Shown here in pieces: positions 8,259-28,740 of a stretch of DNA of 64,000 nucleotides. The notes under the pieces are model-generated. The model saw only the letters and a list, made by a program, of their open reading frames with translations, did not search any database and was not told the DNA's origin. Both the position numbers and the translations under genes were made by a program. Every line of letters begins with the position of its first letter. Position 1 is the first letter of the stretch. Origin of the DNA: Croceivirga thetidis (GTDB lineage: Bacteria; Bacteroidota; Bacteroidia; Flavobacteriales; Flavobacteriaceae); contig NZ_JAAWWL010000002.1 in assembly GCF_012272815.1 (NCBI RefSeq), positions 526,280-590,279 on the forward strand. Reading direction: 5' to 3'.

Positions 8259-8267
8259 TATTAAAAA

Positions 8268-8289
8268 AGGGAAGCCCTAAGGCTTCCCT
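8268..8289. terminator. Bidirectional intrinsic terminator
   Basis: A perfect 9-bp stem AGGGAAGCC / GGCTTCCCT with a CTAA loop lies between two convergent genes. On the minus strand it is followed by TTTTTTAA and on the plus strand by a weaker CTTTCG. It therefore ends the DUF1080 gene and the OmpA-like gene. Confidence 0.85.
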
Positions 8290-8317
8290 CTTTCGTCTTA
8301 AGTGTCAGTGTTGTTTT

Positions 8318-9151
8318 TTAAGGCTGTGTTTTGGCTTCTGAATCCAAAAGGGCAAAGAACTTATCCAAATCAGGAATTATAACAATTCTGGTTCTTCTAT
8401 TTTTTGCCATATTGTCGTTATCGGTATTTTCAACCAAAGGTTGGTATTGACTTCTACCAGCTGCAATCAACTGTGTTGGGTCAACATCAAAATCATCTTG
8501 TAGTTTACGAACAACGGATGTTGCACGTTTAACACTTAAATCCCAGTTGTCTTGGAACAAAGGCGTATTAATTGTTCTAGAATCAGTATGACCTTCAACC
8601 ATTACTTCCATACTTGGTTCTGAGTTAATTACCTCAGCCAATTTTCCTAGAATTCCGTCTGCTTTATTACTTATTTTGTAACTACCACTTTTGAATAAAA
8701 GGTTGTCGGCAATGTTGATCATTACAACTGTTTTGTCAACAAAAACGTCAATTTCATCTTCTTGATCGGTCAATGACTTTTTTAAGTTATGGGAAACCGC
8801 TAGGTTGACTTTTTCCTCCATTGTTTTAGCCTCGGCCACTTTTGCAGGATCGATTTCACTTAATGTCTTGTCCAATTTGGCCTTTGTGTCGTTATTCATG
8901 ACAGTACCTTCTTCAATCGTATATTGGCTGTCATTGATTTCTTTTAGAGAGTTGATTTTAGCGTTGTATTCTTCAACCCTTGCTTCAATTTTTGAAAGCT
9001 TAGCTTCCAACTCTTCTTTTTCAACTTGGGTTTTTGAAAGTTGGCTCTGTGTATTGGCCAAGTTAGCTTCAAGGGCAACGTATTTCTTTTTTGAAACACA
9101 AGCAGTAAGCAATAGGGCTGCTGCCGCACTAGAAAGAATTATTTTTTTCAT
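8318..9151 (-). CDS. OmpA-family peptidoglycan-binding lipoprotein
   Basis: A 277-residue outer-membrane lipoprotein (lipobox LLTAC, Cys18). A coiled coil spans about residues 24-72 (KKYVALEANLANTQSQLSK onward). The C-terminal OmpA domain is seen in LLFKSGSYKIS, MEVMVEGHTDSRTI, NWDLSVKRATSVVRKL, LIAAGRSQYQPL and the NRRTRIVI ending. This domain normally binds peptidoglycan non-covalently. It lies downstream of the vWA lipoprotein in the same direction, but a terminator separates the two. The coiled-coil plus OmpA layout is common in flavobacterial envelope proteins. Confidence 0.93.
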   Translation of the reverse strand: MKKIILSSAAAALLLTACVSKKKYVALEANLANTQSQLSKTQVEKEELEAKLSKIEARVEEYNAKINSLKEINDSQYTIEEGTVMNNDTKAKLDKTLSEIDPAKVAEAKTMEEKVNLAVSHNLKKSLTDQEDEIDVFVDKTVVMINIADNLLFKSGSYKISNKADGILGKLAEVINSEPSMEVMVEGHTDSRTINTPLFQDNWDLSVKRATSVVRKLQDDFDVDPTQLIAAGRSQYQPLVENTDNDNMAKNRRTRIVIIPDLDKFFALLDSEAKTQP

Positions 9152-9210
9152 GTTTAGATTTTTTCCTGTTCATAAAGGTTTTACATCATCATTTACGCAC
9201 AGAAACAAAA

Positions 9211-9237
9211 AATGGATTACAACAACTGCAATCCATT
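9211..9237 (-). terminator. Intrinsic terminator of the vWA gene
   Basis: Arms AATGGATT (9211-9218) and AATCCATT (9230-9237) form an 8-bp stem. On the minus strand the stem is followed by TTTTGTTTC. The hairpin lies 31 bp past the stop of the vWA gene and 60 bp before the OmpA-type start. Confidence 0.7.
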
Positions 9238-9267
9238 CCTCATATTTAGCATTTATGCTAGATGTTT

Positions 9268-10359
9268 TTATTCACATCCGCCGGTAAATCCACTAGCGTT
9301 GAATTTAGTTTGAACTGCTCCCTGTCTGGCCCCATCGGTAAGTTGAATCACCAGATTGTTTTCGCCGCTACCATCTCTTTTTGGAGTACAATATTCGAAA
9401 AGATAATAGCTGTTGGCTCGCTCAATTACACGTTCGGATATTTGATTAAAGGTAGTTTCCAATTCTTCTTTATTACTAGCTACTACACTTGCGGTTTTTC
9501 CTATATCCTGTAAAACTTGTTGGTCTATTTCTGCACCGAGACCAATGGTAAAAAAGGAAATATTACTATTTGCACTGTTGACTTTGTTAAGAGCTTCCGA
9601 TTCCGAATAGCGGGAAGCTTGATCGGTACCATCGGTAAAAATTACTACCGATGTAGCCTCAATAACGCTTTGATTGCTACGAATTAAATTCTCAGCAAGG
9701 TCGGTCGATTTAATTACAGCCCCATATAGGTCAGTCGAAGGGTCTGCACTTATATCTTCAGTAATACTATTTATAGCGGTTTTTAAATCAGTAATTGATG
9801 GTGTCAATTCACTTAATAAATGTAATTGGTCCTCACCATCAAACCAGTATATTGCCATTTTAACAGATTCTGTTTCGTTTTGAGGCATTACGTTGTCCAC
9901 AAAACTGGCCGAAGCTGTTTTTAATTCATCAAGGCTATTTTGCAAAACCGAATTACTTAAATCCAATACCAAAAAGGTATTATTACTAAATACTTGAGCA
10001 TTCGGTGAAATTCTTGCTAATGATTCAGAAGAAGAAATGACATTAAAACAGTCATCGTTTCTTCCCTGTTCATAAACCGTGAATTGGTCAGCGGTTAACC
10101 CAGCTACTGGATTACCAACGTTATCGGTTACACGAAAAAGAATAGATACTTTGGCAGGCGGTTCTGCATTTTGTGATTGAATAGATAGAACAAGGTTGTT
10201 CTCTTCAAAGTTCAAACAATTATCCGGATTTTCACCCAGGCCTAATTCATTGTTATTGAGGTCAAAGCGAACATCATCATCAGAGTTTCCACAAGCGACA
10301 ACTAAGAATAAAATCGAAAGAAAAGTAGCCGTGTGGCCCAAGAAAGTTTTCATTTTCAA
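9268..10359 (-). CDS. von Willebrand factor A domain lipoprotein
   Basis: A 363-residue lipoprotein: signal peptide with lipobox LVVAC (Cys23), a beta-sandwich segment (about 50-110, LVLSIQSQNAEPPAKVSILF), then a vWA domain. The metal site (MIDAS) is visible as DLSNS in FLVLDLSNSVLQNS, STDLYGAV and FTDGTDQASRYS. vWA domains bind protein partners through a divalent cation. The last 60 residues (YYLFEYCTPKRDGSGENNL) form another small strand-rich unit with Cys residues. Likely an envelope adhesion or scaffolding protein. Transcribed alone, ended by the hairpin at 9211-9237. Confidence 0.9.
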   Translation of the reverse strand: MKMKTFLGHTATFLSILFLVVACGNSDDDVRFDLNNNELGLGENPDNCLNFEENNLVLSIQSQNAEPPAKVSILFRVTDNVGNPVAGLTADQFTVYEQGRNDDCFNVISSSESLARISPNAQVFSNNTFLVLDLSNSVLQNSLDELKTASASFVDNVMPQNETESVKMAIYWFDGEDQLHLLSELTPSITDLKTAINSITEDISADPSTDLYGAVIKSTDLAENLIRSNQSVIEATSVVIFTDGTDQASRYSESEALNKVNSANSNISFFTIGLGAEIDQQVLQDIGKTASVVASNKEELETTFNQISERVIERANSYYLFEYCTPKRDGSGENNLVIQLTDGARQGAVQTKFNASGFTGGCE

Positions 10360-14426: not shown

Positions 14427-15413
14427 ATGTTGGTAGATAATCATGGTAGGAAAATTAACTATCTGCGATTAGCAGTCACAGACCGCTGTAATTTGCGCTG
14501 CAATTATTGTATGCCGGCAGAAGGCATCAATTTTGCAAAACGAGAAGAATTATTGACCACATTAGAGTTGAAACAAGTAGCAAAGGTTCTAGTCGAAATG
14601 GGAATTGAAAAAATAAGGCTAACAGGCGGGGAACCATTTGTTCGAAAGGATATCATGGATTTACTTGCATTCCTTTCACATCTCGAAGGGTTGAAAGATA
14701 TCTCAATAACCACAAATGCCACACTTATTGGAAAGCATTTAGACGAACTCAAGCAGCTCGGAATTAAAAACATCAATGTAAGTCTAGATGCAATCAAAAA
14801 AGAAACCTTTGAACATATAACGCGAAGAAACTCCTATGAAATCGTTCGTGAAAACTTATTTAGATTATTGAACGAGGATTTCAATGTTCGTGTGAATTTT
14901 ATTGTGCTACAAGGGCAAAACGAACAGGATATTATCCCAATTTTGAATGAATTTAAAGACTACCCGGTAGGCATACGTTTTTTGGAAGAAATGCCGTTTA
15001 ATGGCGGTACAAAAAGCTTCGGAAGTATTCATTGGGACCATAAAAAAATCTTAGAGTACATCACGGATTACTTTCCAAATTACCAGAAATTAGATTCCCC
15101 AAAAACCTCTACTTCAGTAAATTATAAAATAGATGGGCATCAGGGTACGTTTGGAATTATTCCTTCCTTTAGCAGAACTTTTTGTGGGAGTTGTAATCGC
15201 TTACGTGTAACGGCTAAAGGAGACGTTATAACCTGTTTATATGGCAAACCCAAAACTAATCTCAGAGAAATAATTCGCGGCAACGATTCCTTCGATAAAA
15301 TTAAAATGGAGGTTGAAAGGGTAATAGGAGAAAGAGCTAAAACTGGTTTTGAGGCTCAAAAAGAGCATGAAAACAAAGTATTTGAGAGTAGTATGACTTC
15401 AATTGGTGGATAA
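14427..15413 (+). CDS. moaA: GTP 3',8-cyclase
   Basis: The radical-SAM enzyme that, with MoaC, begins molybdopterin synthesis from GTP. At 328 residues it is full length. The SAM [4Fe-4S] cluster is held by Cys21, Cys25 and Cys28 (CNLRCNYCMPAEG). The second cluster is in the C-terminal FCGSCNRLRVTAKGDVITCLYG. RLTGGEPFVRKD is the GGEP motif. The protein ends with the Gly-Gly typical of functional MoaA. MoaC is not in the window. The downstream lipoprotein starts 4 bp after the stop. Confidence 0.96.
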   Translation: MLVDNHGRKINYLRLAVTDRCNLRCNYCMPAEGINFAKREELLTTLELKQVAKVLVEMGIEKIRLTGGEPFVRKDIMDLLAFLSHLEGLKDISITTNATLIGKHLDELKQLGIKNINVSLDAIKKETFEHITRRNSYEIVRENLFRLLNEDFNVRVNFIVLQGQNEQDIIPILNEFKDYPVGIRFLEEMPFNGGTKSFGSIHWDHKKILEYITDYFPNYQKLDSPKTSTSVNYKIDGHQGTFGIIPSFSRTFCGSCNRLRVTAKGDVITCLYGKPKTNLREIIRGNDSFDKIKMEVERVIGERAKTGFEAQKEHENKVFESSMTSIGG

Positions 15414-15417
15414 GAAA

Positions 15418-15915
15418 ATGACAAGGGTATTTAGTTTTTTCTTATTGGTACTTCTAGTATTTGGTTGCAATAAAAAAGACCAATCTTCTATTGCGGTACC
15501 TACCGATGGTTCCTTTACAATTGAAAAAGAAAAAGAGGCTATACTAAATACTTTAAATAACGAAACCAAAGCTGCTTTTCAAAGGAACTATCAAGAATGG
15601 CAAGCGTATTGGGTTCATGATGAAGATATAACCAAAGTCTATATTGATATTTCAGAACGTTCCTTTTCAGAGTCAATTGGTTGGAAGGAAATAAGTCAAT
15701 TTGTTAAAACATTTTTTGAAGAACATCCCGAACCTGAGCCAGTACCAGAGTTATTGGATAAAATCGATGTTCGATTATATGGTAATGGGGCTTGGGTCAC
15801 TTACATGCAGAACGATTCTATTCGTGGATTAAAAAAGGAAACAAGACTGATGGAAAAGGTAGGAGGGGAATGGAAAATAGCCGGAATGCAAACAACGATT
15901 TATGGCTTCGATTAG
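15418..15915 (+). CDS. NTF2/SnoaL-like lipoprotein
   Basis: A 165-residue protein starting at the ATG at 15418, which gives MTRVFSFFLLVLLVFGCNKK, a lipoprotein signal with its Cys at residue 17; an earlier TTG in frame would only add residues. The mature part (LNNETKAAFQRNYQEWQAYW, ENGAW-like YGNGAWVTYMQND, TRLMEKVGGEWKIAGMQTT) matches the nuclear-transport-factor-2/DUF4440 fold used by many small binding proteins and hydratases. Function is unknown. It sits between moaA and mobA in a tight operon, with its end overlapping the mobA start by 14 bp. Confidence 0.75.
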   Translation: MTRVFSFFLLVLLVFGCNKKDQSSIAVPTDGSFTIEKEKEAILNTLNNETKAAFQRNYQEWQAYWVHDEDITKVYIDISERSFSESIGWKEISQFVKTFFEEHPEPEPVPELLDKIDVRLYGNGAWVTYMQNDSIRGLKKETRLMEKVGGEWKIAGMQTTIYGFD

Positions 15916-16516
15916 CAATGAGGCATATCATGTAAAATTATACGGACTTATTCTTTGTGGTGGGTTAAGTACTCGGATGGGCAAGGACAAAGATGAGTTA
16001 AAATATCACGGCATTCCACAAAGCAGGTATATGTTTGAATTGGCTTCTAACTGCTGTGAGCAAACGTTTTATAGTGTTCGAGAAGACCAAAAATCCTCCT
16101 ATAATGGGTTACCTAAAATTATTGATCGAGACGAATATCAAGGTCCATTAAATGGAATTTTGAGTGCGCATGAAGAATTTCCTAAGGTTGCATGGTTGGT
16201 ATTGGCCTGTGATCTACCATTACTGAATTTGCCTAATATTCAAAACCTAGTATTGCAAAGAGACAATTCTAAAAACGCTACTGTTTTTTCAAAAAGGGAA
16301 GATAATTTACCTGAGCCTTTGGTAGCCATTTGGGAACCAAAGGGACTGCGAAATTTGAAAAACAATATTGCAGAGAAAAGGGCATTCGGTCCTAGACAAT
16401 TTTTGAGAAGTACTGAAATCGCTTTTGTTTATCCTTCCGATGAAAATGTCCTATTTAATGCAAATTCAATGGAGCAGTTCGAACAAGCTCAATTACATTT
16501 AAAAAGTAAGGATTGA
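15902..16516 (+). CDS. mobA: Molybdenum cofactor guanylyltransferase-like protein
   Basis: A 204-residue nucleotidyltransferase. LILCGGLSTRMGKDKDELKY is the MobA form of the L-x-G-G-x-S-x-R-M-G-x-D-K signature, and VAWLVLACDLPLLNL is the metal-binding loop. MobA normally joins GMP to molybdopterin, whereas the operon enzyme is expected to need the CMP form made by MocA (20535-21134). Both being present is notable. The ATG at 15902 lies within the end of the preceding gene. GTP specificity is inferred from the sequence signature only. Confidence 0.82.
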   Translation: MASISNEAYHVKLYGLILCGGLSTRMGKDKDELKYHGIPQSRYMFELASNCCEQTFYSVREDQKSSYNGLPKIIDRDEYQGPLNGILSAHEEFPKVAWLVLACDLPLLNLPNIQNLVLQRDNSKNATVFSKREDNLPEPLVAIWEPKGLRNLKNNIAEKRAFGPRQFLRSTEIAFVYPSDENVLFNANSMEQFEQAQLHLKSKD

Positions 16517-17583
16517 CCAACAGGTATATTAGACATACCAGTCTTTCTAGTTTTGGTGTACAGGGCCAAACTAAATTATCCAAGGCTTCCATTCTAATTG
16601 TTGGTCTTGGAGGTCTAGGTATACCTGCTGCCCAATATTTAAACGCAATGGGAGTGGGCGAAATAGGTCTTGTAGAAAACGATATTATAGCCCTTCATAA
16701 TCTTCAACGTCAAGTTCTTTATTCAGAAAACGATATCGGCAAATCGAAACTGGATGTAACTTTACATAAACTTCAAGAGCAAAACCAATCAACAGCGTTT
16801 AAGACTTTCGATGCTTACTTAACTCCAGAGAATGCATTGGAAATAATAGCACAGTTTGATTTAGTTATTGATGCAACTGACAATTTTGAATCGCGTTATT
16901 TAATTAACGACGCCTGTGTTATTCTAGATAAACCTTTTGTTTACGGTGCTTTACATGCCTTCGAAGGTCAAATTTCCGTGTTTAATTTTGAAGAAGGGCC
17001 AACTTATAGATGCTTATTCCCTGTTCAGCCTGGTATTGATGAGATTCCAAATTGTGATGATAACGGGGTATTGGGTATTCTCCCAGGTATTATTGGATCC
17101 CTTCAGGCACTTGAAGCTGTAAAAGTGATTACTGGTATAGGTGCTGTTCTTTCAGGTAAGCTTCTTCTTTTTGATGGTTTGAGTCAAACGACCCAAAAAA
17201 TCAATTTTAATTTAAACCCTATAAATAAAGGAATATCCCATCTTAAAGAAAGTTATCATGCAACATCATGTACGAATATTAAAAATATTTCAGCGGAAGA
17301 GTTCATTGAAATTTCAGAAAGGGAGTCCATTCAAATAATTGATGTGCGTTCAGACACTGAATTTGGAAATGGATACTGGAAAGGCGCCAAGAATATCCCC
17401 TTATCAGATATAGACAAGCGATTGGAAGAATTCGATTTCAATGATGAGATTTATTTGCTTTGTCAATCGGGTATCCGCAGTCAGAAAGCCTACGAGCTTC
17501 TTACCACATTGAGGCCCTCAGCAAAGCTTATTAATGTGGCCGGAGGCATGAACAACCTAGAACTTCATGTTGGCTCAAACTGA
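16513..17583 (+). CDS. moeB: MoeB/ThiF-type adenylyltransferase with C-terminal rhodanese domain
   Basis: A 356-residue two-domain enzyme. Residues 1-245 are an E1-like domain: the ATP loop ILIVGLGGLGIPAAQY, then NLQRQVLYSENDIGKSK and DATDNFESRY. Residues about 250-356 are a rhodanese domain with active Cys in YLLCQSGIRSQKAYE. It should adenylate the MoaD tail and pass it sulfur. The first zinc CxxC of E. coli MoeB reads T-Y-R-C here, and no clear second pair is seen, so the structural zinc may be absent. The start appears to be a TTG at 16513 that overlaps the mobA stop (ATTGA); there is no suitable ATG. Confidence 0.9.
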   Translation: MTNRYIRHTSLSSFGVQGQTKLSKASILIVGLGGLGIPAAQYLNAMGVGEIGLVENDIIALHNLQRQVLYSENDIGKSKLDVTLHKLQEQNQSTAFKTFDAYLTPENALEIIAQFDLVIDATDNFESRYLINDACVILDKPFVYGALHAFEGQISVFNFEEGPTYRCLFPVQPGIDEIPNCDDNGVLGILPGIIGSLQALEAVKVITGIGAVLSGKLLLFDGLSQTTQKINFNLNPINKGISHLKESYHATSCTNIKNISAEEFIEISERESIQIIDVRSDTEFGNGYWKGAKNIPLSDIDKRLEEFDFNDEIYLLCQSGIRSQKAYELLTTLRPSAKLINVAGGMNNLELHVGSN

Positions 17584-18343
17584 GATTATATTGCTGGCTA
17601 CCGCCTTTTTTTTGGTAGCGCTATTGTATTCCAGTGTTGGTTTTGGCGGCGGATCAAGTTATTTGGCACTATTAGCTTTGGTCTTCGCTAACTTCTTTAT
17701 GATTCGTAGCTCTGCATTGCTGTGCAATCTTGTTGTGGTTTCTGGAAGTAGTTTTCTCTATTTTCAAAGAGGTCACCTACAATTCAAAAAGTTCGTCCCA
17801 TTCTTAATAACTAGTATTCCTTTAGCCTTTGTGGGGGCATTATTTAAATTAAAGGAGCATTTTTTCTTTATTCTTTTGGGCATCAGTCTTCTTTTTGCTG
17901 CTTTTGCTCTCGTCTTACAGACTTTAAAGTTAAAAGGTGAATATCAGCCAAGTTCATATTCAAAATACCTATCCTATTTACTGGGCGGCGCTGTTGGCTT
18001 TTTATCAGGAATGGTAGGTATTGGGGGTGGAATATTTCTAGCTCCTATTTTAAATCATATGAAGTGGGATAAGCCATTAGTTATAGCCGCATTAGCCAGT
18101 TTTTTTATTTTGGTGAATTCGATTTCCGGAATTTTAGGTCTGTTGTTTGCAGATACATTTATTGTACCCACCCCAGATATTTGGTTTTTAATTGTTGCTG
18201 TCTTTCTAGGCGGACAATTAGGGGCAAGATTAAGTTTGGGTAAATTATCTGGTAAAACCATTCGATTATTGACCGCATTATTGGTTTTGGTAGTGGGCAT
18301 TCGGGTCTTACTAAAAAATGGTTTTCAACTAACAATATTTTAA
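17567..18343 (+). CDS. TauE/SafE-family membrane permease
   Basis: A 258-residue integral membrane protein with about eight hydrophobic segments. Glycine-rich SVGFGGGSSYLALLAL near the N-terminus and GFLSGMVGIGGGIFLAPILN in the middle are the two duplicated TauE signature loops. The family exports sulfite, sulfonates or organosulfur anions. Its start overlaps the moeB stop by 17 bp and its own stop abuts moeA, so it is a true member of the cofactor operon. A role in sulfur-anion or molybdate handling is inferred from the operon, not from sequence. Confidence 0.85.
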   Translation: MLAQTEIILLATAFFLVALLYSSVGFGGGSSYLALLALVFANFFMIRSSALLCNLVVVSGSSFLYFQRGHLQFKKFVPFLITSIPLAFVGALFKLKEHFFFILLGISLLFAAFALVLQTLKLKGEYQPSSYSKYLSYLLGGAVGFLSGMVGIGGGIFLAPILNHMKWDKPLVIAALASFFILVNSISGILGLLFADTFIVPTPDIWFLIVAVFLGGQLGARLSLGKLSGKTIRLLTALLVLVVGIRVLLKNGFQLTIF

Positions 18344-19534
18344 ATGATATCATTTAAAGAAGCAGAACAAATAGTTTTAAGGAATCTCATGGATTTAGGT
18401 AAAGAATTGGTTCCTTTAGAAAATAGTGTTGGTCGGGTCTTAGCTGAAAAGATTTATGCCGACCGGGATTTCCCTCCATTTGATAGGGTAACCAAAGATG
18501 GTATTGCCATTAGATTTCAGTCATACGAAAATGGCAATAAGTTGTTTAAAATTCAGGAAACTGCCGCTGCCGGTAGTGCCCAAGTAACCTTAAGCCACCC
18601 TAACGACTGTATTGAAGTAATGACCGGAGCTATGCTTCCTAAAGGAACGGATACGGTAATAATGTATGAAAATCTTTTGTTGAAAGATGGTAATGCAATA
18701 GTGGAAATCGCTCCTCAAAAAAGTCAAGACGTTCATTCAAAAGGTTCTGATGAGCATAGCGGAAGTGTTTTGTTGGACTCAGGCAATCTAATTACACCGG
18801 CTGAGATAGGGGTATTGGCCACTGTGGGCAAATCAGAAGTAAAAGTAAAAAAGTTACCAAAGATTGCTATTGTTTCGACAGGTGATGAGTTGGTGAACAT
18901 TGATGAGATACCAGAACCACATCAGATTAGAAAATCCAATTCATGGTCGCTGAAGGCTGCTTTAAAAAGTCAAGGGATAATAGGTGAATTATTGCATTTT
19001 AGGGATTCAAAAGAAGCTCTTTTAGAGGGCTTAGGAAAGGCAATTGATAATTATGATGTTCTTCTTTTAAGTGGTGGTGTATCCAAAGGAAAATTTGATT
19101 ATCTACCTGAGGTATTGGAGAAGTTAGGAGTCAAAAAACTATTTCATAGAGTATTGCAACGACCTGGAAAACCATTTTGGTTTGGCCTTAACGATTTTTG
19201 CACATTATTTGCCTTCCCTGGTAATCCGGCTTCTACGTTTGCAAACTTTCATGTATATTTTTTACCCTGGCTAAGAAGTTCATTTGGAGCGCAGACCGAT
19301 AGGTGTCACGCTGTATTAAATGAGCGTTTTGAAAATACCACAGATTTAACAAGATTTATTTTGGCAGATGCACAGTTGTCTCAAGGAACAATAAAAACTA
19401 ATTTAGTAAAGGACAACGGTTCAGGAGATTTAACTAGCCTAGCAAGATCAAATGGATTAATTTGTTTTGATTCCAATCGCAATTATGAAGTAGGGGAGTT
19501 GGTTCCTTTTTATCCAACAAAAAAGATTTTGTAA
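18344..19534 (+). CDS. moeA: Molybdopterin molybdenumtransferase
   Basis: MoeA inserts molybdate into adenylylated molybdopterin in the cytoplasm. The 396-residue protein has the N-terminal ISFKEAEQIVLRNL and DRDFPPFDRVTKDGIAI, the domain III motif IVSTGDELVNI, LLLSGGVSKGKFDYLPEVL, and FAFPGNPASTF, with a C-terminal beta-barrel. The length is normal for the family. It starts directly after the TauE stop and ends immediately before xdhC (TAAATG junctions), as expected for tight coupling. MogA/MoaB, which makes its adenylylated substrate, is not encoded in this window. Confidence 0.95.
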   Translation: MISFKEAEQIVLRNLMDLGKELVPLENSVGRVLAEKIYADRDFPPFDRVTKDGIAIRFQSYENGNKLFKIQETAAAGSAQVTLSHPNDCIEVMTGAMLPKGTDTVIMYENLLLKDGNAIVEIAPQKSQDVHSKGSDEHSGSVLLDSGNLITPAEIGVLATVGKSEVKVKKLPKIAIVSTGDELVNIDEIPEPHQIRKSNSWSLKAALKSQGIIGELLHFRDSKEALLEGLGKAIDNYDVLLLSGGVSKGKFDYLPEVLEKLGVKKLFHRVLQRPGKPFWFGLNDFCTLFAFPGNPASTFANFHVYFLPWLRSSFGAQTDRCHAVLNERFENTTDLTRFILADAQLSQGTIKTNLVKDNGSGDLTSLARSNGLICFDSNRNYEVGELVPFYPTKKIL

Positions 19535-20542
19535 ATGACACATGAGCTAAAACGAATAATTCAAGAATATGAGGAAGCGCTTCAATCTGGAATTGCAGCA
19601 GTACTAGCTACCGTTGTTGCTCTTGATGGGTCTTCATATAGACGACCAGGCGTTCGAATGCTTTTACTTGAAAATGGCAAAATGGTCGGAGCTGTAAGTG
19701 GAGGCTGTGTGGAAAAAGAGATTTATCGACAAGCCGAAAGCGTATTTAAATCGAAAATTGCTAAAGTAATGACCTATGATGGTAGGTATCGGCTAGGTTG
19801 TGAAGGCATACTATATATTTTGTTGGAGCCTATTTCAATGACAACCAAGGCACTGGGACTATTGCAATTGAGTCTGGCTAAACGTAAACCTTTTGAGATT
19901 AAATCTTTTTTTGAAAAAGAATTCTCAGAAAGTGAGAATTTCGGGTCGGTCATTAACTTTTCCAATGTTTCCCATCCCTTTAATAGTGGTTTTAAACCGA
20001 ATTTAAAATTAGATACGTTTACCCAGAAATTACAACCTTGCTTTCGACTCATTTTAATAGGAGCTGAACACGATACCGTACAGTTATGTTCAATGGCGGC
20101 CTTAACGGGATGGGAGGTCACCGTAGTTGTCCATCCTAAAGAGGAAAAATCTATTCAAGATTTTCCTGGCGCTTCTGAACTGATTGCTAATGAGGGTGAT
20201 AATTTGGATTTTGATTTGGATGATGAAACTGCTGTCGTACTAATGACTCATAGTTATGTGAAAGACTTGAAATATCTCATAGCACTTAAGGATAAAAAGC
20301 CAGCTTACTTTGGTTTATTAGGGCCTGCACGAAGACGTGAAAAACTTTTTGATGAGTTAATGGAATTACACCCAGAACTAGAACTTGAATTTATTGAGTT
20401 GATTCACGGACCCGCGGGATTGGATATTGGAGCAGAGACGCCACAAGAAATAGCATTATCAGTATTAGCCGAAATTATTGGAGTGGTCAATAAAAAAGAA
20501 GTGAATTCCTTAAAAGAAAAGGAAGGACGTATTCATGCCTAA
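19535..20542 (+). CDS. xdhC: XdhC/CoxI-family maturation factor
   Basis: A 335-residue protein of the XdhC/CoxI/PaoD type, which binds the finished molybdopterin dinucleotide, promotes its sulfuration and inserts it into hydroxylases. The N-terminal domain holds VLATVVALDGSSYRRPGVRML and GAVSGGCVEKEIYRQ; the C-terminal Rossmann-like domain holds LIGAEHDTVQLCSMAALTGW and ends with GPAGLDIGAETPQEIALSVL. Its presence supports assigning IorAB as a sulfurated MCD-type enzyme. It overlaps the mocA start by 8 bp. Confidence 0.93.
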   Translation: MTHELKRIIQEYEEALQSGIAAVLATVVALDGSSYRRPGVRMLLLENGKMVGAVSGGCVEKEIYRQAESVFKSKIAKVMTYDGRYRLGCEGILYILLEPISMTTKALGLLQLSLAKRKPFEIKSFFEKEFSESENFGSVINFSNVSHPFNSGFKPNLKLDTFTQKLQPCFRLILIGAEHDTVQLCSMAALTGWEVTVVVHPKEEKSIQDFPGASELIANEGDNLDFDLDDETAVVLMTHSYVKDLKYLIALKDKKPAYFGLLGPARRREKLFDELMELHPELELEFIELIHGPAGLDIGAETPQEIALSVLAEIIGVVNKKEVNSLKEKEGRIHA

Positions 20543-21134
20543 GGTAGCTGTTTTAGTATTAGCGGCAGGTGCATCTACTCGAATGGGCAAACCTAAGCAA
20601 TTGTTACCTTGGAAAAATACGACCCTCTTAGGACATGTAATCTCGAATTTAAGGGTAGTGTCAAAACACATTTTGGTTGTTTTAGGGGCAAATCATGAAA
20701 AAATTCTTCCAACACTACCATCTTACCTTGAAAGCGTAATTAATATTGCATGGCAGTCAGGAATGGGCACATCAATAGCTTTGGGAGTAGGGGAACTCGA
20801 AAAATCTGTAAATCCAGAAGCTATTTTAATATGTTTGGTTGATCAACCATTGATTGATGCCGAACTCTTTAAAAAGATTATTGATTTGCATAATCTAAAC
20901 CCTTCAAAGATTATCGCCACTACATATGTTGGTGGCAAAGGAGTACCTGCACTTTTTCCTAAAAAGTATTTTAATGCTCTAAAACAATTCAGTGCTGATT
21001 ATGGTGCAAGACATTTTTTAAAGAGCAATAAAAATGAAGTCATTCCATTTGATTCGGATGGTAAGGCCGTAGATTTGGATACTCCTGCAAATTATGATGC
21101 ATATTGGAAAAAACACGGCCGAGAACTATTGTAA
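20535..21134 (+). CDS. mocA: Molybdenum cofactor cytidylyltransferase-like protein
   Basis: A 199-residue nucleotidyltransferase with VAVLVLAAGASTRMGKPKQLLPWKNTTLLGHVI, the MocA signature, and LICLVDQPLIDAELFKKII, the D-Q-P metal loop characteristic of this group rather than the D-x-P loop of MobA. MocA attaches CMP to molybdopterin, giving the MCD cofactor of IorB-type enzymes. It is the last gene of the molybdenum operon. The next gene starts 49 bp on and is functionally different. Confidence 0.92.
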   Translation: MPKVAVLVLAAGASTRMGKPKQLLPWKNTTLLGHVISNLRVVSKHILVVLGANHEKILPTLPSYLESVINIAWQSGMGTSIALGVGELEKSVNPEAILICLVDQPLIDAELFKKIIDLHNLNPSKIIATTYVGGKGVPALFPKKYFNALKQFSADYGARHFLKSNKNEVIPFDSDGKAVDLDTPANYDAYWKKHGRELL

Positions 21135-22240: not shown

Positions 22241-22261
22241 AAACCTGACTATGTCAGGTTT
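22241..22261 (-). terminator. Intrinsic terminator of the repeat microprotein gene
   Basis: A perfect 9-bp stem AAACCTGAC / GTCAGGTTT closes on a 3-nt loop. On the minus strand it runs into TTTTAG, giving a long T tract. It lies 30 bp past the stop of the SKPGGG-repeat gene at 22291-22464. Confidence 0.75.
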
Positions 22262-22290: not shown

Positions 22291-22464
22291 TTAAGGTTTA
22301 ATACCCCCTCCAGGTTTTGAAACAGCTCCTTGTGGTTTAATTCCTCCTCCTGGTTTTGATACAGCGCCCTGTGGCTTTATACCTCCTCCAGGTTTAGATG
22401 TGGCCGCTTGCGGTTTAATGCCACCTCCTGGTTTGGAAGTCGCCTTTTTTTCTTTGTCGCTCAT
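22291..22464 (-). CDS. 57-residue tandem-repeat microprotein (SKPGGGIKPQ repeats)
   Basis: The protein starts MSDKEKKAT and then consists of four tandem copies of a 13-residue unit, S-K-P-G-G-G-I-K-P-Q-(A/G)-A-(T/V), the last ending after I-K-P. It has no Cys, no signal peptide and is strongly basic and glycine-rich. The DNA units differ at many third positions (Ser is TCC, TCT, TCA, TCA; the Gly triplets all differ) while the residues hardly change, so selection seems to act on the peptide. A terminator follows. It is divergent from the TPR/caspase/TIR gene set and shares the upstream region with its promoter. No known family is recognised. A repeat-core precursor peptide, an antitoxin-like partner or a nucleic-acid-binding peptide are possibilities. 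Confidence 0.65.
   Translation of the reverse strand: MSDKEKKATSKPGGGIKPQAATSKPGGGIKPQGAVSKPGGGIKPQGAVSKPGGGIKP
22294..22437 (-). repeat. 39-bp tandem repeat, 3.7 units, in a coding sequence
   Basis: Units occupy 22399-22437, 22360-22398, 22321-22359 and a 27-bp partial unit at 22294-22320. Each encodes one 13-residue module of the microprotein. The unit length is a multiple of three, there are no spacers, and the differences are largely synonymous. Confidence 0.85.
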
Positions 22465-22488: not shown

Positions 22489-22503
22489 TCACTATATTAG
22501 TGA
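22489..22503. promoter_or_regulatory. Palindrome at the predicted transcription start
   Basis: TCACTA-TAT-TAGTGA is a perfect 15-bp palindrome starting 5 bp after the -7 element, across the expected +1. Its position suits a repressor site for the plus-strand set. It also lies 25 bp upstream of the microprotein start on the other strand, so a single regulator could control both directions. The regulator is unknown. Confidence 0.5.
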
Positions 22504-22569
22504 AAAATACCAATCAAACCAAATTAAGTTCCTAATAATCAGTTAGTAGGAATTTTCGCCAATAGATAA

Positions 22570-24555
22570 ATGAACATTAAGGAATTCATCAAAGAATGCC
22601 AAAAATGGGACGTTTTCAAAAAACTCTCGATTTATATTGTAACAAGTTGGCTTCTTATACAAGTGTTGGGTTCTACATGGGAGTCCTTGGGCCTTCCCAA
22701 GGTAGTTAATACTTATCTCTTACTCATATTATTGGTTGGGTTTCCATTTTACATATTTTTTGTTTGGAAGTATCAGATTTCGCCTTACATAAAACAAAGT
22801 GTTGCCGATCCTGAAGCTTTGGATATCGATAATTCCTATAAAAGGAGGTTTCAACGCATTTATTTTGGCGCCCTTTCCATTGTTGCCTTATTTGCCCTTT
22901 TAGGAGTGGCCTCCATTGCGAAAAATAAATTGAGAAACACGAACAACTTTCCTGAATTTGAAGAAAGTAATAAAATAGCTGTTCTTAAATTCGACAACAA
23001 TACCGGTAATGCTGAATATGATATCGTTGGTAAAATGGCAGCAGATTGGCTGATGCACGGCATAACCCAATACAAAGCAGGCCAAGTTGTATCTCCAAAG
23101 ATTATTGAAGATTATACCGAAGTTCTTAAATCATCTTACAGTGGTGAAGGCAACGAAAATGTAATAACCAAATTCATTAAACCTTCTAAGGTCATCAATG
23201 GGGATTTCTATTTGAAAGATGGGGATTTGGTCATGCAATGTGCCATTACCGATGGATTGATGAACAAGACCTTGATTTCTTTTGACTATACGGTATGCGA
23301 CATTGATAATTCATTGAACTGTATTGAAGACTTAAAACAGAGTGCCTTGACATATCTTATTCAAGGTGATTCATTAGATGCCTTGAATCTTCAGGAGACG
23401 CCTCCAAAATTTGATGCATATCGTTATAAGCTCGAAGCAGAAGAAAAATATGCTGGTCAACCTAATCGATATCTTGAATTATTGAACAAAGCCATTGCTG
23501 CTGACCCTAATTATTTTGAACCAAAAGTATTGAGGGTAGTACATTTTTATAATGAAGAAAAATATTCCATTGCCGATTCATTACTAAGAGATTTGGCCTT
23601 TAACTCAAGAGGGACAGAAAGACAGGCAAATCTTTTGAGAATGTACAGGTCTTTATTGGACGGGAATAATCGCAATGCCACTTCATATTTTGAACGTGAA
23701 TATAATTATGCGCCCTTCCATTTATCGTCGAACAGTACAATGATGGTACTAACACAACAATATATTAATAGACCCGCATACATTGATGATATTTTTAATG
23801 CCATCGATATGGCCCGACTTGATGTTTTAGGCTGTACGCATTGCCAGTATAGATATTATATAAAGGCTTTCGCCTTAATAGAACTTGATAAACCAAATGA
23901 AGCCGTAGCGCTCTTAGAACCGCTGGTTTTAAAAAATAGGGGACTTGCACTACTTAAGAAGGCGTTATTGGTGGCATATACCAGATCAGGAAATCTGGAA
24001 AAAGTAAATAGTTTTCTAAAGGATATAGAGGTTTATAATGAACACGACATTCTATTGAATTCAAACCTTACCGTTGGCCGGGAACTACTTTTACAGGGTA
24101 AGAAAATGGAAGCGGAGCCTTATTTTCAAAAAGTATTGGCAGAACACGGCAGCCATTCTGAACTTGAAATAATGGCTGAAGCCAATTACTATTTAGAAAA
24201 TTTTACTGTTGCCTCAGAAATTTTATTCTCCTTGCAAGAGAACGACAGTGACCTAACCCCATATTCTTTAAGTATGCTTGCAGTTTCATTGGAGAAATCC
24301 AATCAAAAGAGCAAAGCAAAAGAGGTCCTGACATTACTGGAAGAATTTCAAGGGCCCTATTTGTTTGGAACCGTGGATTATGCCTTAGCACGTTACCATG
24401 CTTCTGACGAAGACCGTGAAAAAACAATTTACCATTTAAAAAGAGCTGTTGCGTCAGGTGCACAATTTGAACCTGATAGTTTTAAGAACGACCCCCATTT
24501 TAATTTTTTAAAAGACTCACCAGAGTTCAATAACATTTTAACCTTTTGGCATTAA
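22570..24555 (+). CDS. Membrane-anchored TPR protein with FlgO/TolB-like domain
   Basis: A 661-residue protein. Three membrane segments are seen at about 17-37, 46-66 and 97-116. They are followed by a TolB-N/FlgO-like alpha-beta domain (about 135-240, starting SNKIAVLKFDNNTGNAEYDIVGKMAADWLMHGI) and then a long series of TPR-like helix pairs to the C-terminus (for example YLELLNKAIAADPNYFEPKVL and EKTIYHLKRAVASGAQFEPD). This layout occurs in Bacteroidota proteins that carry an N-terminal cyclase or DNA-binding domain, which is absent here. It is the first gene of the set with the caspase-like and TIR genes, 12 bp before the next, and may be the membrane sensor or scaffold. Confidence 0.75.
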   Translation: MNIKEFIKECQKWDVFKKLSIYIVTSWLLIQVLGSTWESLGLPKVVNTYLLLILLVGFPFYIFFVWKYQISPYIKQSVADPEALDIDNSYKRRFQRIYFGALSIVALFALLGVASIAKNKLRNTNNFPEFEESNKIAVLKFDNNTGNAEYDIVGKMAADWLMHGITQYKAGQVVSPKIIEDYTEVLKSSYSGEGNENVITKFIKPSKVINGDFYLKDGDLVMQCAITDGLMNKTLISFDYTVCDIDNSLNCIEDLKQSALTYLIQGDSLDALNLQETPPKFDAYRYKLEAEEKYAGQPNRYLELLNKAIAADPNYFEPKVLRVVHFYNEEKYSIADSLLRDLAFNSRGTERQANLLRMYRSLLDGNNRNATSYFEREYNYAPFHLSSNSTMMVLTQQYINRPAYIDDIFNAIDMARLDVLGCTHCQYRYYIKAFALIELDKPNEAVALLEPLVLKNRGLALLKKALLVAYTRSGNLEKVNSFLKDIEVYNEHDILLNSNLTVGRELLLQGKKMEAEPYFQKVLAEHGSHSELEIMAEANYYLENFTVASEILFSLQENDSDLTPYSLSMLAVSLEKSNQKSKAKEVLTLLEEFQGPYLFGTVDYALARYHASDEDREKTIYHLKRAVASGAQFEPDSFKNDPHFNFLKDSPEFNNILTFWH

Positions 24556-24567
24556 AAAAATATAATT

Positions 24568-25068
24568 ATGGATTGGACAACATTAACTGCTTTAGTTGAG
24601 CATCTGGCTTGGCCTATCACTGTTGTGGTTTCGCTTTTGGTATTCAAAAAAAATATTTCAGGAACTTTTAACCGATTGGGGTCTTTTTCAGCTGGGTCGC
24701 AAGGCATAAGCGCTAGTTTTGTTCAGGAAAAAATAGCAGCGGCGAAAAACTTGGCGAAAGGTATTCAACCCAATAGTCAATCCAAATCGACAAGTATTCG
24801 TCCCCAAGGCCCATACTCCGAACTAAAAAAGTTGGAACATTCCCTGCATGGAAGACTAGCCGAAATAGCAACAAAGAATCAAATCGACCATACTCAAATG
24901 AACAATTCAGAACTGGCTGATAAGTTGAAGGGTGTAGGTATTATATCAATTCAAGACTTCAAATTAATTGAGGCTTTTATGGAGATTGAAAAAGCTGCCG
25001 ATGATTCGTTGACCTATCAACAACTAAATGAAATAAAAGAAGTTTTCCAAGAAATAAAATTCAACTAA
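24568..25068 (+). CDS. Small membrane protein with C-terminal helical domain
   Basis: A 166-residue protein with one N-terminal membrane helix (about 10-25, HLAWPITVVVSLLVFKK), a variable linker rich in Ser and Gln, and a helical domain (about 88-166) containing LEHSLHGRLAEIATKN and ELADKLKGVGIISIQDFKLI. That domain resembles the C-terminal bundle seen in other membrane proteins of unknown function. It contains no catalytic signature. Its stop codon shares bases with the caspase gene start (TAATG), so the two are translated together and probably act together. Confidence 0.65.
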   Translation: MDWTTLTALVEHLAWPITVVVSLLVFKKNISGTFNRLGSFSAGSQGISASFVQEKIAAAKNLAKGIQPNSQSKSTSIRPQGPYSELKKLEHSLHGRLAEIATKNQIDHTQMNNSELADKLKGVGIISIQDFKLIEAFMEIEKAADDSLTYQQLNEIKEVFQEIKFN

Positions 25069-27263
25069 TGGCACAACTAGAAAATTGTTATGCTTTGTTG
25101 ATAGGAATTGGAGCAGACCTACCGATAACGGTTCGTGATGCCAGGGCCGTATACAATATTCTTGCTGATGAAGCCTATGCAGGCTATCCTGCTGAAAATA
25201 TAATTCTAATTACAGAAGAGCAAGCTACACGAAAAGGAATCCTAGATGCTCTAGATGAGTTGATTGCCAAAACTTCAGAGGATTCTTCTGTCTTATTATT
25301 CTATTCGGGTCATGGCGGATTATATGAACCTTGGAATCAATTTTATTTGGTTCCGCATGGTTTCGATGAAGTGGAATACGAAACAACTTGGGTTAAGGCC
25401 GAAGAACTTCGTGAAAAAATCAGCAAAATCAAATCTCGAAGATTGGTTTTCTTTTTGGATTGTTGTCATGCAGCAGGTATGACTCAATCTCTCAATATGT
25501 CAGAATCTGCCAAGCCGCAAAAAGAATTGGGCCAAGCAGAGGGATTAGCCCAGCATATTGACGATGGCCGAGGCATGTCAATTGTTTCTTCCTGTCGCGA
25601 AGATCAACTATCATACATTATGGATGGCGACCACAATAGCCTTTATACCAAATGCCTGCAAGAAGTATTGAAAGCTGAACATAAAAAACAGTTTGAGGAG
25701 CCTTTTATTCGAATATCCGAAGTTGTACAGTACATTTTTAGAAAAGTACCCGAACGAAATCCAGCACAAAGGCCCTACGCGAACCTTCAGATTTATGATG
25801 ATTTTATTTTGAGTTGTGTTCCAAAGGATAGGCAGTCTGCTGTTTTGCAAGAATCCAGTGAGCCAGATGTTGTTCAAGCTCCAAAAAACGAAGCTCAGGA
25901 AATGGTTACGGTTTTCCGCGAAACACCAGGTGCTAATAATGCCATTTTATTTGTTCATGGGTTTTCAGGTGAAAGTGCCGATAGTTTTGGTGATATCCCC
26001 AATTTGTTAATGCAGGAATCAAGCTTGGAGGGTTGGGACATGTTTCCTTTAGGTTACAGCGAGTACGTCAAACCTGAAAAAGGCAAGGAGGTTTGGGCTT
26101 CAGTAAACGATATTGAACGTATTGCAGATTACATGGCCACTAGCCTGAAATACAAATTCGACAAGTACGATAGAATAGCAATTATAGGTTATAGTTTGGG
26201 TGGATTAGTCGCTCAAAAAGCAATTCTGGATAGCTCAAATGATGTTTTGGACCGTATTTCTCACTTGGTATTATTCGGTAGTCCAAATAACGGCCTTAGT
26301 GAAAAAGAAACTGAGAAAATTTGGAACAAGAAGAATTCTGATTTGGCAGCAAACAATTCCTTTATAAAAAATTTGAGGGATAAATGGAGTCAAAAATTTG
26401 ATTCGACCTATCCTTTTGATTTAAAAGTAGTGGCCGCAACCCAAGATGAATTCATTCCTCTAGAGTCTAATTTTTCACATTTTCCTGAAGAAAACTGTTA
26501 CACAGTTGCGGGGAGTCATTTGAACATGGTAAAGGTTTATGACAAAGAAAATGATGCCTTCCATCTCATCGAAAACTCTTTAAACAACACTACTTTTTTC
26601 AATATGTTCACTTCAGCTGAGGACATAAATATTACGCTGGGTGAATATGAAGCCGTCATCAAGAAGTTACTACCTCAAAAAAATGACCTTGACCCAAGGG
26701 GGGTAAAACAACTGGTCTTTGCTTTGGAAGGGTTAAGTAGACATGAAGAGGCCGTTGAAATACTATTGAATCACGACGGATCTAAAGACAATAGCGATTT
26801 GCTTGGCATGCTTGGCGGTAGACTTAAACGCAGTTATTTGGAAAACTTTTCAGGTAAAACGGCGCAAGACAGTGCGGAATGTTACAAAAAAGGATTGGCT
26901 ATTGCGGAGGAAAGGAGTAACAAAGGACAAATTTATTATCATGCCATAAACCTAGCCTTTCTTAGCTTGGTCGCAATGGAAGATATTGGCGAAATGGAAT
27001 ATTACGCCTCAAAAGCCCTAGAAGCTGCGGAAAATGATTCAAGAGAAAGTTTATGGAAACTCGCTACACTTGGAGAGGCCAATCTCTATCTCAATAATTT
27101 GGAGAAGGCGAAAAGTTTTTACGAAAAAGCATCTGAAATGGCGGGCATAAGGGAAAAAATATCAATCCACACAAATGCTTACAAAGCATATGTGTGCTTG
27201 ACTCAAAGCACGAGTGAGGAAGATGATTTTGTAAAATTTCTAAAGGCCAAATTCTTAAGTTAG
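25068..27263 (+). CDS. Caspase-like peptidase / alpha-beta hydrolase / TPR fusion
   Basis: A 731-residue cytoplasmic fusion. Residues 1-250 are a C14 caspase p20-like domain: catalytic His82 in LLFYSGHGG and Cys133 in VFFLDCCHAAG. Residues about 285-500 are an alpha/beta hydrolase: oxyanion strand NAILFVHGFSG, nucleophile Ser376 in IIGYSLGGL, acid Asp460 in ATQDEFIPLES, base His484 in VAGSHLNMV. This resembles lipase/PGAP1-like esterases. Residues about 530-731 are TPR-like helices (EGLSRHEEAVEILLNHDG, GEANLYLNNLEKAKSFYEKA). All key residues of both enzymes are present. With a TIR protein two genes on, it looks like an effector of a conflict or suicide system. Confidence 0.88.
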   Translation: MAQLENCYALLIGIGADLPITVRDARAVYNILADEAYAGYPAENIILITEEQATRKGILDALDELIAKTSEDSSVLLFYSGHGGLYEPWNQFYLVPHGFDEVEYETTWVKAEELREKISKIKSRRLVFFLDCCHAAGMTQSLNMSESAKPQKELGQAEGLAQHIDDGRGMSIVSSCREDQLSYIMDGDHNSLYTKCLQEVLKAEHKKQFEEPFIRISEVVQYIFRKVPERNPAQRPYANLQIYDDFILSCVPKDRQSAVLQESSEPDVVQAPKNEAQEMVTVFRETPGANNAILFVHGFSGESADSFGDIPNLLMQESSLEGWDMFPLGYSEYVKPEKGKEVWASVNDIERIADYMATSLKYKFDKYDRIAIIGYSLGGLVAQKAILDSSNDVLDRISHLVLFGSPNNGLSEKETEKIWNKKNSDLAANNSFIKNLRDKWSQKFDSTYPFDLKVVAATQDEFIPLESNFSHFPEENCYTVAGSHLNMVKVYDKENDAFHLIENSLNNTTFFNMFTSAEDINITLGEYEAVIKKLLPQKNDLDPRGVKQLVFALEGLSRHEEAVEILLNHDGSKDNSDLLGMLGGRLKRSYLENFSGKTAQDSAECYKKGLAIAEERSNKGQIYYHAINLAFLSLVAMEDIGEMEYYASKALEAAENDSRESLWKLATLGEANLYLNNLEKAKSFYEKASEMAGIREKISIHTNAYKAYVCLTQSTSEEDDFVKFLKAKFLS

Positions 27264-27281: not shown

Positions 27282-27506
27282 ATGAAGCGATTTTCACCTA
27301 AAATTTCTCCTAAGCTAACTTTTGTTGAAGCTATAAAAAAGCCAATACCCATTAAATGTGCCCAAATTCAGGAACCCTTTATTGTTGAAACAATGGAAGG
27401 GGAGCTTCAAGGTAAAAAGGGTGATTGGCTAATGATAGGCGTAAATGGGGAAATGTATCCTTGCGACAAAGATATTTTTGAAAAAACATATGATATTCAA
27501 CCGTAA
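27282..27506 (+). CDS. PGDYG-domain small protein
   Basis: A 74-residue protein, residues 30-74 of which match the PGDYG domain: IVETMEGELQGKKGDWLMIG followed by GEMYPCDKDIFEKTY. The domain is a small beta fold often found alone or in phage-linked proteins, with no established activity. Here it lies 18 bp after the caspase-like gene and 31 bp before the TIR gene, in the same direction. A substrate- or partner-recognition role in the set is inferred. Confidence 0.75.
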   Translation: MKRFSPKISPKLTFVEAIKKPIPIKCAQIQEPFIVETMEGELQGKKGDWLMIGVNGEMYPCDKDIFEKTYDIQP

Positions 27507-27537: not shown

Positions 27538-28740
27538 ATGGCTGACAATAAAATTTTCTTCAGTTATTCAAGAGACAACTCTGAATTTGTAATAGAACTT
27601 GCCAAAGAACTTCGTGAGGCCGGAGCTACAATTTGGCTAGATCAATTGGATATAAAACCTGGTACGCGCTGGGACCGCTCCATTGAAGAAGCACTGAAAT
27701 CATCGAATACCTTATTGGTCATCCTATCAAAGTCGTCAGTAGAATCGCATAATGTAATGGATGAAGTTTCTTATGCGCTAGAAGAGGGTAGAACCGTGGT
27801 TCCCGTACTTTTGGAAGAGTGCGAAATTCCTTTTCGCCTGAGAAGGCTTCAATACGCTGATTTTACACAGGGTAATGAAAAGGGAATTCAAACTTTAATT
27901 AAATCGCTTAACCTTGAAAGTGATGTTGCCAACAAACTGGTCGACATTGCTGCGGAGGCAGAAAGCACCAAAAAAGCGGACAACAAACCGAAACCAGCCC
28001 CTGAAAAACCAAAAGAAGAACCGAAATCCAAGGCTAAAGCGGACCCTATCGTAGCCCCTTTGGAAGAACCAAAAGTGGTTACCCATAAACCAGAACCTCC
28101 AAAAAAAACCTCCACACCACCAACACCAGCTAAAAAATCAAATTCTAAAATTGTTCCCGCCATTCTTGGGGCCTTAGTTGTCGGTGCGTTGATTTATTTT
28201 GTTCCTAAATTGATGAACGGAGATGAAGCAGCTGTGACTGAAGATTCTTCTAATGTGGAGAATACAGAAACGCCAACAATTTCCCCTCCAGAAAGTGGTG
28301 GGACCAATACAAGTATAACAGAAGAAGAACCAGAAGAACCCGCAGTTGATGAAGCGAGTATTGCTTGGAAACTTGCAAAAGAGCAAAATGAAATAGAAGG
28401 TTACCTATTCTATCTCAATAAATATCCAGATATGGACGAGGCCCGCAAAATGGACTTTGAAGGTTCTATCAAGGCGCTTTATTCTAAAGAGGGATACATT
28501 CAATATTCACAGTCAAATGGTGTTTCTTATTTTGAAAAGGTATATCCTCAGAATACTCCTTCGGTACCGCCAATTGAAGGGTATTTGATTAAAATAGACC
28601 AAAGCAGAAACGTAAAAGGCGGGGCATATGGCACATCAGGTTTTAATAGAAGACTAGGCGTGCTTGAAAAGGATGACTATGCCATTATTAAAGAAGTGAT
28701 TCCAAGTGGAACGGCCTATTGGGTGAAAATCAGTTACTGA
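27538..28740 (+). CDS. TIR-domain protein with transmembrane segment
   Basis: A 400-residue protein. Residues 4-125 are a TIR domain: IFFSYSRDNSEFVIELAKEL, IWLDQLDIKPGTRWDRSIEE and SKSSVESHNVMDEVSYALEE; Glu76 is in the position of the catalytic Glu of NAD-cleaving TIRs. Residues about 140-203 are a Lys/Pro/Glu-rich linker, 205-223 a membrane helix, 230-275 an acidic linker and 275-400 a C-terminal domain (IAWKLAKEQNEIEGYLFYLN, and GYLIKIDQSRNVKGGAYG). The C-terminal part would lie across the membrane. The protein could therefore sense an envelope signal and act inside the cell. It ends 11 bp inside the convergent GntR gene. Confidence 0.88.
   Translation: MADNKIFFSYSRDNSEFVIELAKELREAGATIWLDQLDIKPGTRWDRSIEEALKSSNTLLVILSKSSVESHNVMDEVSYALEEGRTVVPVLLEECEIPFRLRRLQYADFTQGNEKGIQTLIKSLNLESDVANKLVDIAAEAESTKKADNKPKPAPEKPKEEPKSKAKADPIVAPLEEPKVVTHKPEPPKKTSTPPTPAKKSNSKIVPAILGALVVGALIYFVPKLMNGDEAAVTEDSSNVENTETPTISPPESGGTNTSITEEEPEEPAVDEASIAWKLAKEQNEIEGYLFYLNKYPDMDEARKMDFEGSIKALYSKEGYIQYSQSNGVSYFEKVYPQNTPSVPPIEGYLIKIDQSRNVKGGAYGTSGFNRRLGVLEKDDYAIIKEVIPSGTAYWVKISY

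Follow-up and report, generated by a model that had tools for sequence, protein, structure and literature searches.

The 64,000-nucleotide stretch of Croceivirga thetidis DNA analysed here (the window) encodes a 57-aa repeat microprotein that belongs to a family of small peptides encoded divergently from the gene for a membrane TPR protein, which is followed at most peptide loci by a caspase gene. Selection acts on the peptide sequence, and its core motif recurs within other proteins of the same loci. The reading that we favour, with a probability of about 0.42, is that the free peptide may serve as a soluble, multivalent mimic of the caspase recognition site, that is, as a decoy or pseudosubstrate. 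The initial annotation of the window missed the genome-to-genome variation of the peptide around a common core motif, its tie to the caspase and the TPR protein and not to the TIR gene, and the recurrence of the motif in stretches of the system's own membrane proteins that are cytosolic by predicted topology. The features concerned are the following:

22241..22261, both strands: terminator-like hairpin 3' of the microprotein gene, whose stem has 9 pairs and whose tail is T-rich
22291..22464, minus strand: repeat microprotein, 57 aa, with four SKPGGGIKP units (22411-22437, 22372-22398, 22333-22359 and 22294-22320)
22490..22506: conserved element CACTATATTAGTGAAAA, an imperfect palindrome found in the intergenic region of peptide loci
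22570..24555, plus strand: membrane TPR protein, 661 aa, with three predicted TM helices followed by a CadC-periplasmic-domain-like and TPR region
24568..25068, plus strand: cl3, small membrane protein, 166 aa, with one TM helix and no library match
24781..24807, plus strand: SKSTSIRPQ motif in the predicted cytosolic linker of cl3, resembling the SKPGGGIKPQ of the microprotein
25068..27263, plus strand: caspase with alpha/beta hydrolase and TPR-S regions, 731 aa, with His82/Cys133 and Asp131 two residues before the Cys
27282..27506, plus strand: PGDYG-like protein, 74 aa, a sub-threshold Pfam match
27538..28740, plus strand: TIR protein, 400 aa, whose linker is K/P-rich and which has a hydrophobic segment around residue 206

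Translation of the minus-strand ORF gives MSDKEKKAT followed by four SKPGGGIKP units at 13-residue spacing. The Ser codons of these units read TCC, TCT, TCA and TCA, and the four glycine triplets each differ at the DNA level. TRF finds no other tandem array in the window than this repeat, for which it gives a period of 39, 3.7 copies and 76% matches; among the four copies pS is 0.75 and pN 0.21. Translation, codons and TRF thus confirm the 57-codon ORF with four synonymously diverged units that had first been described; the impression that the microprotein is unannotated is also supported, and neither the peptide nor cl3 has a match in Pfam, PADLOC or NCBIfam. An RNA feature at this locus was rejected, an Rfam scan having returned no match anywhere in the window. 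Tau-like KPGGG matches in the literature are unrelated to the microprotein.

The microprotein gene is separated from the TPR gene by a 105-bp gap and, as proposed from the outset, lies head to head with a TIR/caspase gene set across a common control region, the intergenic region being conserved across loci. The element CACTATATTAGTGAAAA is found within 4 mismatches in 48/78 peptide loci and 0/9 peptide-less loci, occurs nowhere else in the window when up to 3 mismatches are allowed, and is absent from the Aequorivita-type loci. On the peptide strand, TTTG stands about 20 bases before TAATATAG, an arrangement which we take to be a Bacteroidota-type promoter, and CACTATATTAGTGAAAA itself is the probable promoter or operator of the microprotein gene. 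The terminator anticipated about 30 bp past the microprotein stop corresponds to the terminator-like hairpin listed above.

A sequence search with the microprotein matched 5/396 other genomes of the family at E<=1e-3 and 0/10 genomes of the same genus. All five matches are system loci in which the peptide is divergent from, and adjoins, a relative of the TPR gene at 22570-24555. A weak match in G017 falls inside a 367-aa gene. Candidate orphan peptides were likewise discarded: of seven genomes matched in one peptide search, six are system loci, and the match in G219 is due to chance, an acyltransferase gene there having a linker rich in repeats.

The locus set was built from relatives of the TPR gene and not from the peptide. 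Such relatives were found in 19/199 family genomes, and in 40/397 with a 12-sequence profile. The 79 named loci, among the best 80 of 87 stretches, are nearly all from Flavobacteriaceae (Aequorivita, Lutibacter, Robiginitalea, Muriicola and Eudoraea, among others), the rest being a few MAGs for which no name beyond Bacteroidetes is given and one with the name Cytophagaceae. Draws from the order (2/296) and the phylum (2/247) recovered only the window's genome and G187, and since the entries listed in these draws all belong to the same family, absence from other families is poorly supported. The 116 loci were reduced to 90 by identity of residues 11-110, and to 87 by the removal of L025 (same as L135) and of L123 and L125 (which lack the start).

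A small ORF that belongs to the peptide family and points away from the TPR gene is present at 78/87 of these non-redundant loci (63/72 after dereplication at 80% identity), and the search for homologues suggested by the initial annotation thus finds that they exist and keep frame. The distance from peptide start to TPR-gene start has a median of 108 bp (5-95% range 102-134; outliers include L086, at 75, and L116, at 167). The nine peptide-less loci, called by hand, comprise L090, L067, L128 and L143, with no candidate ORF; L092 and L063, with an ORF lacking the motif; and L084, L099 and L038, in which the ORF is a 294-aa hydrolase-like gene and which are second copies of tandem TPR genes or have the same arrangement. 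Tandem TPR genes of which one has a peptide are seen in L049 (G214) and L084 (Muriicola), the peptide-less copy facing the 294-aa hydrolase-like gene. Two complete tandem units, each with a TPR gene, a caspase and its own repeat peptide (SEKGDGGGRDPQ versus KPGGTIDPGGQ), occupy positions 4259-13645 of L042 (G095).

Expectation-maximisation on the 77 distinct peptides yielded the motif [SP]-K-[PDST]-G-x-x-[IV]-[NKD]-P-[KG] (K 0.87, G 0.89, I 0.74, P 0.80). Lys occupies the second core position in 68/78 best units; peptides of the L054/L057/L113/L056 group are without this Lys, and the five loci with a motif score below 4 bits (L093, L055, L124, L119 and L105) all have repetitive or K/G-rich peptides. 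The residue after the motif Lys is Pro at 35 of the 78 loci, Asp at 10, Ser at 7, Thr at 7 and Glu at 3, and is not assignable at 16. The peptides measure 29-296 aa, are net positive in 65/78 cases, contain Cys in 2/78, and have no hydrophobic segment, the best Kyte-Doolittle mean over 15 residues being 0.61. Copy number ranges from 1 (35 loci by our count) to about 34 (L094); most long arrays have a period of 8, and many single-copy peptides have about eight residues after the Lys at the C-terminus.

The longest array, that of L094 (Muriicola sp. Z0-33), is a 296-aa peptide of about 34 KSKxGPVI units in which SKSGPVI alternates with SKDGPVI (period 16), and its divergent ORF lies 105 bp upstream of the TPR gene. 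The L115/L147 peptide has 20-odd KDGGGINP units followed by a C-terminal KKSWWSRIFGS that is confined to this peptide type and might possibly bind membranes or proteins.

Among the 57 automatically detected arrays, some of which are low-complexity stretches, pN is below pS in 56 (pooled dN/dS 0.16), the exception being L080, a low-complexity stretch; the 17 arrays with at least seven copies have pN of 0.03-0.14 and pS of 0.27-0.91. The excess of pS means that copies are kept alike inside a locus, yet differ strongly between loci, and the early suggestion that the peptide rather than the DNA is kept holds across the family.

Beyond the gap, the window gene order is TPR gene, cl3, caspase, PGDYG-like gene and TIR gene. 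In a set of 21 context loci that counts the window as one, the companions of the TPR gene are the caspase at 19 loci, a TIR-type family at 15, and cl3 and the PGDYG-like gene at 8 each. At 72/78 peptide loci, a caspase gene starts no more than 0.9 kb after the TPR gene. The six peptide loci without a nearby caspase are L101, L074, L054, L056, L057 and L113; G230 (L039), whose peptide is the same as that of L057, has cl3 and a caspase 5-6 kb downstream, behind unrelated genes, and L101, with no caspase in 5 kb, retains a 29-aa peptide remnant and has lost CACTATATTAGTGAAAA. Peptide-less loci with at least 1.4 kb of downstream sequence have a caspase in 0/5 cases; L063, L038 and L099 offer too little sequence for a judgement, and L084 has a caspase behind its second TPR copy. 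Fisher's test on 72/6 versus 0/5 gives p = 1.6e-5, or 8.4e-5 with L084 counted as a caspase carrier, values that overstate independence because the loci are related.

We read these distributions as placing the peptide with the TPR protein and the caspase, cl3, PGDYG and TIR being frequent and not constant companions, and we are highly confident that the microprotein forms part of a membrane-TPR/caspase gene set that often also includes TIR. Distance-matrix tests gave partial r of 0.274 for the caspase and 0.275 for the TPR protein (both p 0.003) and do not distinguish which is the peptide's partner. No transporter, CRISPR gene or modification enzyme is among the genes recurring at the loci, and PADLOC returned generic caspase and TIR matches only. 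From the caspase and TIR genes, we infer that the gene set acts in defence.

In L052 (G183), the TPR gene is fragmented at 8038-10197, the caspase, PGDYG-like and TIR-type genes remain, and a peptide ending in KPGVIIRPVGD is still present; the flanks are as in the window, where a gene run that by eye appears molybdenum-cofactor-like (14427-21134) precedes the caspase set and has six genes in the same order in L052. Within the genus, 7/10 other genomes have a dienelactone-hydrolase-like gene, and the other seven window query genes are unmatched in the 3.8-kb stretches concerned, which demonstrates neither insertion nor loss. A viral origin was rejected after the caspase found no relative in a single scan of viral contigs.

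The window caspase matches the Pfam models C14 (76.8 bits), TPR-S (52.7 bits) and DUF676 (hydrolase; 26.7 bits), all above cut-off. Its closest solved sequence is the plant metacaspase AtMC4 (E 1.8e-5), and its AlphaFold model (mean pLDDT 80.2, pTM 0.52) has MALT1 as top Foldseek match. An alignment of 72 caspases, 71 from peptide loci plus that of L084, places the family with metacaspase/paracaspase-type proteins by its caspase fold with a His/Cys dyad: the His, the Cys and the Asp two before the Cys are present in 72/72, and a Ser two before the His in 70/72. In AtMC4, Asp137 and Ser84, together with Asp352 and Ser350, form a pocket for Lys225, which blocks the active site (PMC7206013). The Asp two before the Cys of the window caspase aligns with the pocket Asp of AtMC4. 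Because the S1 Asp and Ser match this pocket, and because orthocaspases cut after basic residues (PMC6426788), the window caspase, by analogy, likely prefers Lys or Arg.

Both membrane proteins of the set have charge distributions from which a topology can be predicted. In the TPR protein, K+R averages 4.5 for the N-terminus and 6.1 for the loop between TM2 and TM3, the two remaining segments averaging 1.1 and 2.0, so the TPR part is predicted to be periplasmic by the positive-inside rule; the CadC periplasmic domain (3ly8) is among its Foldseek matches, at rank 22 with a TM-score of 0.51 by target. In cl3, mean K+R is 0.94 before the TM helix and 3.21 after it, with more after it in 31/33 proteins, and the C-terminal part is therefore predicted to be cytosolic.

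The peptide motif recurs in the C-terminal linker of cl3. The locus's own 10-residue unit is found exactly in cl3 of L127, L103, L115, L132 and L146, and with one change in cl3 of L131, L109 and L141, two of these eight loci being recovered by an independent search with one peptide; over all 33 loci, 17 cl3 linkers score above shuffled versions of themselves at p<0.05. When own units were compared with swapped units against the own cl3, the observed match was reached in 0/5000 permutations for the 33 loci, 0/5000 for the other 25, 4/5000 inside the eight close relatives and 0/5000 for 17 representatives below 60% identity. The effect stays when permutation is restricted to close relatives over all loci (2/5000). 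Outside the expanded clade, the self-match was reached in 3933/5000 permutations at the strictest stratification and in 2 and 7/5000 at looser ones, and a partial Mantel test on the cl3 motif region gave r = 0.001 (p = 0.51). Relatedness between the loci is a partial confounder of this motif sharing.

Where the caspase is short and cl3 is missing, a comparable site occurs elsewhere: the predicted cytosolic loop of the TPR protein contains an ASSKSGI(D/E)- or SKSGIxI-type motif in 8/11 such loci, in 0/33 loci with cl3 and in 0/9 peptide-less loci (self versus swap, 6/5000, or 758/5000 under the strictest stratification). Two Lutibacter caspases have SKSGITI/L in the p20-p10 linker, the place at which metacaspases are cleaved, and their peptide reads PKTGITIEPK; over 71 caspase linkers, the self-swap test is weak (163/5000), and 3/71 beat their shuffles at p<0.05. 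Swap tests on whole proteins were not significant for the TPR protein (280/2000), the caspase (464), PGDYG (843) or the second TIR-family gene (371). The TIR proteins gave a significant swap test (1/2000), their best matches lacked a convincing site, and this candidate was not used. The remaining loci without cl3 gave three weak internal matches, none of them convincing, and no convincing internal site was found in the Aequorivita- and Robiginitalea-type loci. Taken together, we consider it probable that the peptide mimics a motif recognised inside the system.

Under the decoy reading, each repeat would present one copy of a recognition motif, Lys-x-Gly-x-x-Ile-x-Pro, that would also be displayed by the cytosolic linker of cl3 or, where cl3 is absent, by the cytosolic loop of the TPR protein. 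The microprotein, presumably made from its own promoter, would compete with these membrane-anchored sites for the cognate caspase, which would be kept away from them for as long as the sensor stays silent and the peptide is present. The caspase active site appears the most likely reader of the motif, because the motif has a conserved Lys and the predicted pocket is fit for Lys, and we infer that the caspase would bind the motif and be inhibited by that binding. Of the 37 loci in the Lys-Pro class, 19 have cl3, and the cl3 sites picked by eye in this class have Ser, Asn, Gly, Thr or Asp after the Lys; in L138, a Lys-Pro lies five residues before the cl3 site. Most proteases do not cut before Pro, and the presence of Lys-Pro in the peptide but of another residue at the cl3 sites favours a hard-to-cut decoy over a substrate in this class. 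In the Lys-Asp, Lys-Ser, Lys-Thr and Lys-Glu lineages, the peptide could be cut, and decoy and substrate both fit.

The same data bear on several other readings. The motif might instead bind a non-catalytic surface, such as the TPR-S, hydrolase or cl3 domain, so that the array clusters caspases or membrane proteins; the span of copy numbers, the TPR-S region of the caspase and the presence of the motif in both peptide and membrane proteins agree with such a docking scaffold. We nonetheless hold it to be unlikely: the active site is suggested by the conserved Lys and, in two caspases, by the motif in the inter-subunit linker, and 35/78 peptides have a single copy. Release of a signal is a further option, in which the caspase would cut the array at its lysines and the resulting identical octapeptides (xGxxIxPK/G) would be sensed, after lysis, by the periplasmic TPR domain of neighbouring cells. 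The period of 8, the eight or so residues that follow the Lys in many single-copy peptides, the predicted location of the TPR domain and the lack of hydrophobic segments all suit such a precursor; Pro after Lys in 35/78 loci, the occurrence of the motif on the cytosolic side of membrane proteins, for which a signal has no need, and the absence of a transporter among the recurring genes make it unlikely. Plant metacaspases release danger peptides, and by analogy a bacterial alarm-peptide system can be imagined in which the caspase would free lineage-particular octapeptides from the cytosolic repeat protein at death for kin cells to read through an extracytoplasmic TPR receptor, a scenario that we regard as quite improbable.

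The RiPP precursor entertained in the initial annotation, if taken to have modification enzymes encoded elsewhere, would explain repeated cores behind a short leader-like N-terminus, but it is highly improbable in view of the absence of a modification enzyme among the recurring genes, the scarcity of Cys (2/78) and the sharing of the motif with membrane proteins. That the ORF is a functionless low-complexity artefact aligned by chance with the gene start is hardly credible: low complexity and variation between genomes would be expected of one, but not its recurrence in 78/87 loci at a near-constant distance (median 108 bp), with a conserved element and pN far below pS.

Among described systems, Type IV Thoeris combines a TIR protein with a caspase-like protease that is activated by N7-cADPR (Rousset et al., 2025, as cited in PMC12847820). 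The window has both proteins in one gene set; it differs in that the caspase also has hydrolase and TPR-S regions, in that a membrane TPR protein and a repeat peptide are its constant companions, and in that at some caspase loci no TIR gene was detected in the sequence searched, which there spans 5 kb or less. Craspase, the type III-E CRISPR protease Csx29 with its substrate Csx30, also pairs a caspase-type protease with a dedicated neighbouring substrate; Csx30 has 565 residues, is folded and acts as an inhibitor of a sigma factor (PMC10028731), whereas CRISPR genes are absent from the recurring genes here. For the EACC1-associated caspase conflict systems (NCBIfam NF047832), the window caspase domain scores 83.3 bits, below the cut-off of 140, and no EACC1 model matched any of the six window proteins scanned. 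Metacaspases and paracaspases such as AtMC4 and MALT1 share the fold, the catalytic dyad and the Asp two before the Cys; AtMC4 is self-inhibited in cis by a linker Lys in its active site, whereas a separate multi-copy peptide would act in trans here. The short peptide gene beside a TPR gene is reminiscent of RRNPP pairs, whose receptors are cytosolic and Gram-positive. In contrast, the TPR part here is predicted by positive-inside counts to lie outside the cytosol, and the peptide looks unexported, all 78 peptides lacking a hydrophobic stretch by Kyte-Doolittle mean.

We found no description of a peptide of this kind in the open-licence papers searched, and if the decoy reading is true, the microprotein would be a trans-acting caspase inhibitor in bacteria, tunable by copy number, none having been described in that literature. 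If the proposed recognition holds, the lineage-specific sequence of each peptide would provide a ready substrate or inhibitor for its cognate caspase, and caspase specificity would be readable from the genome.
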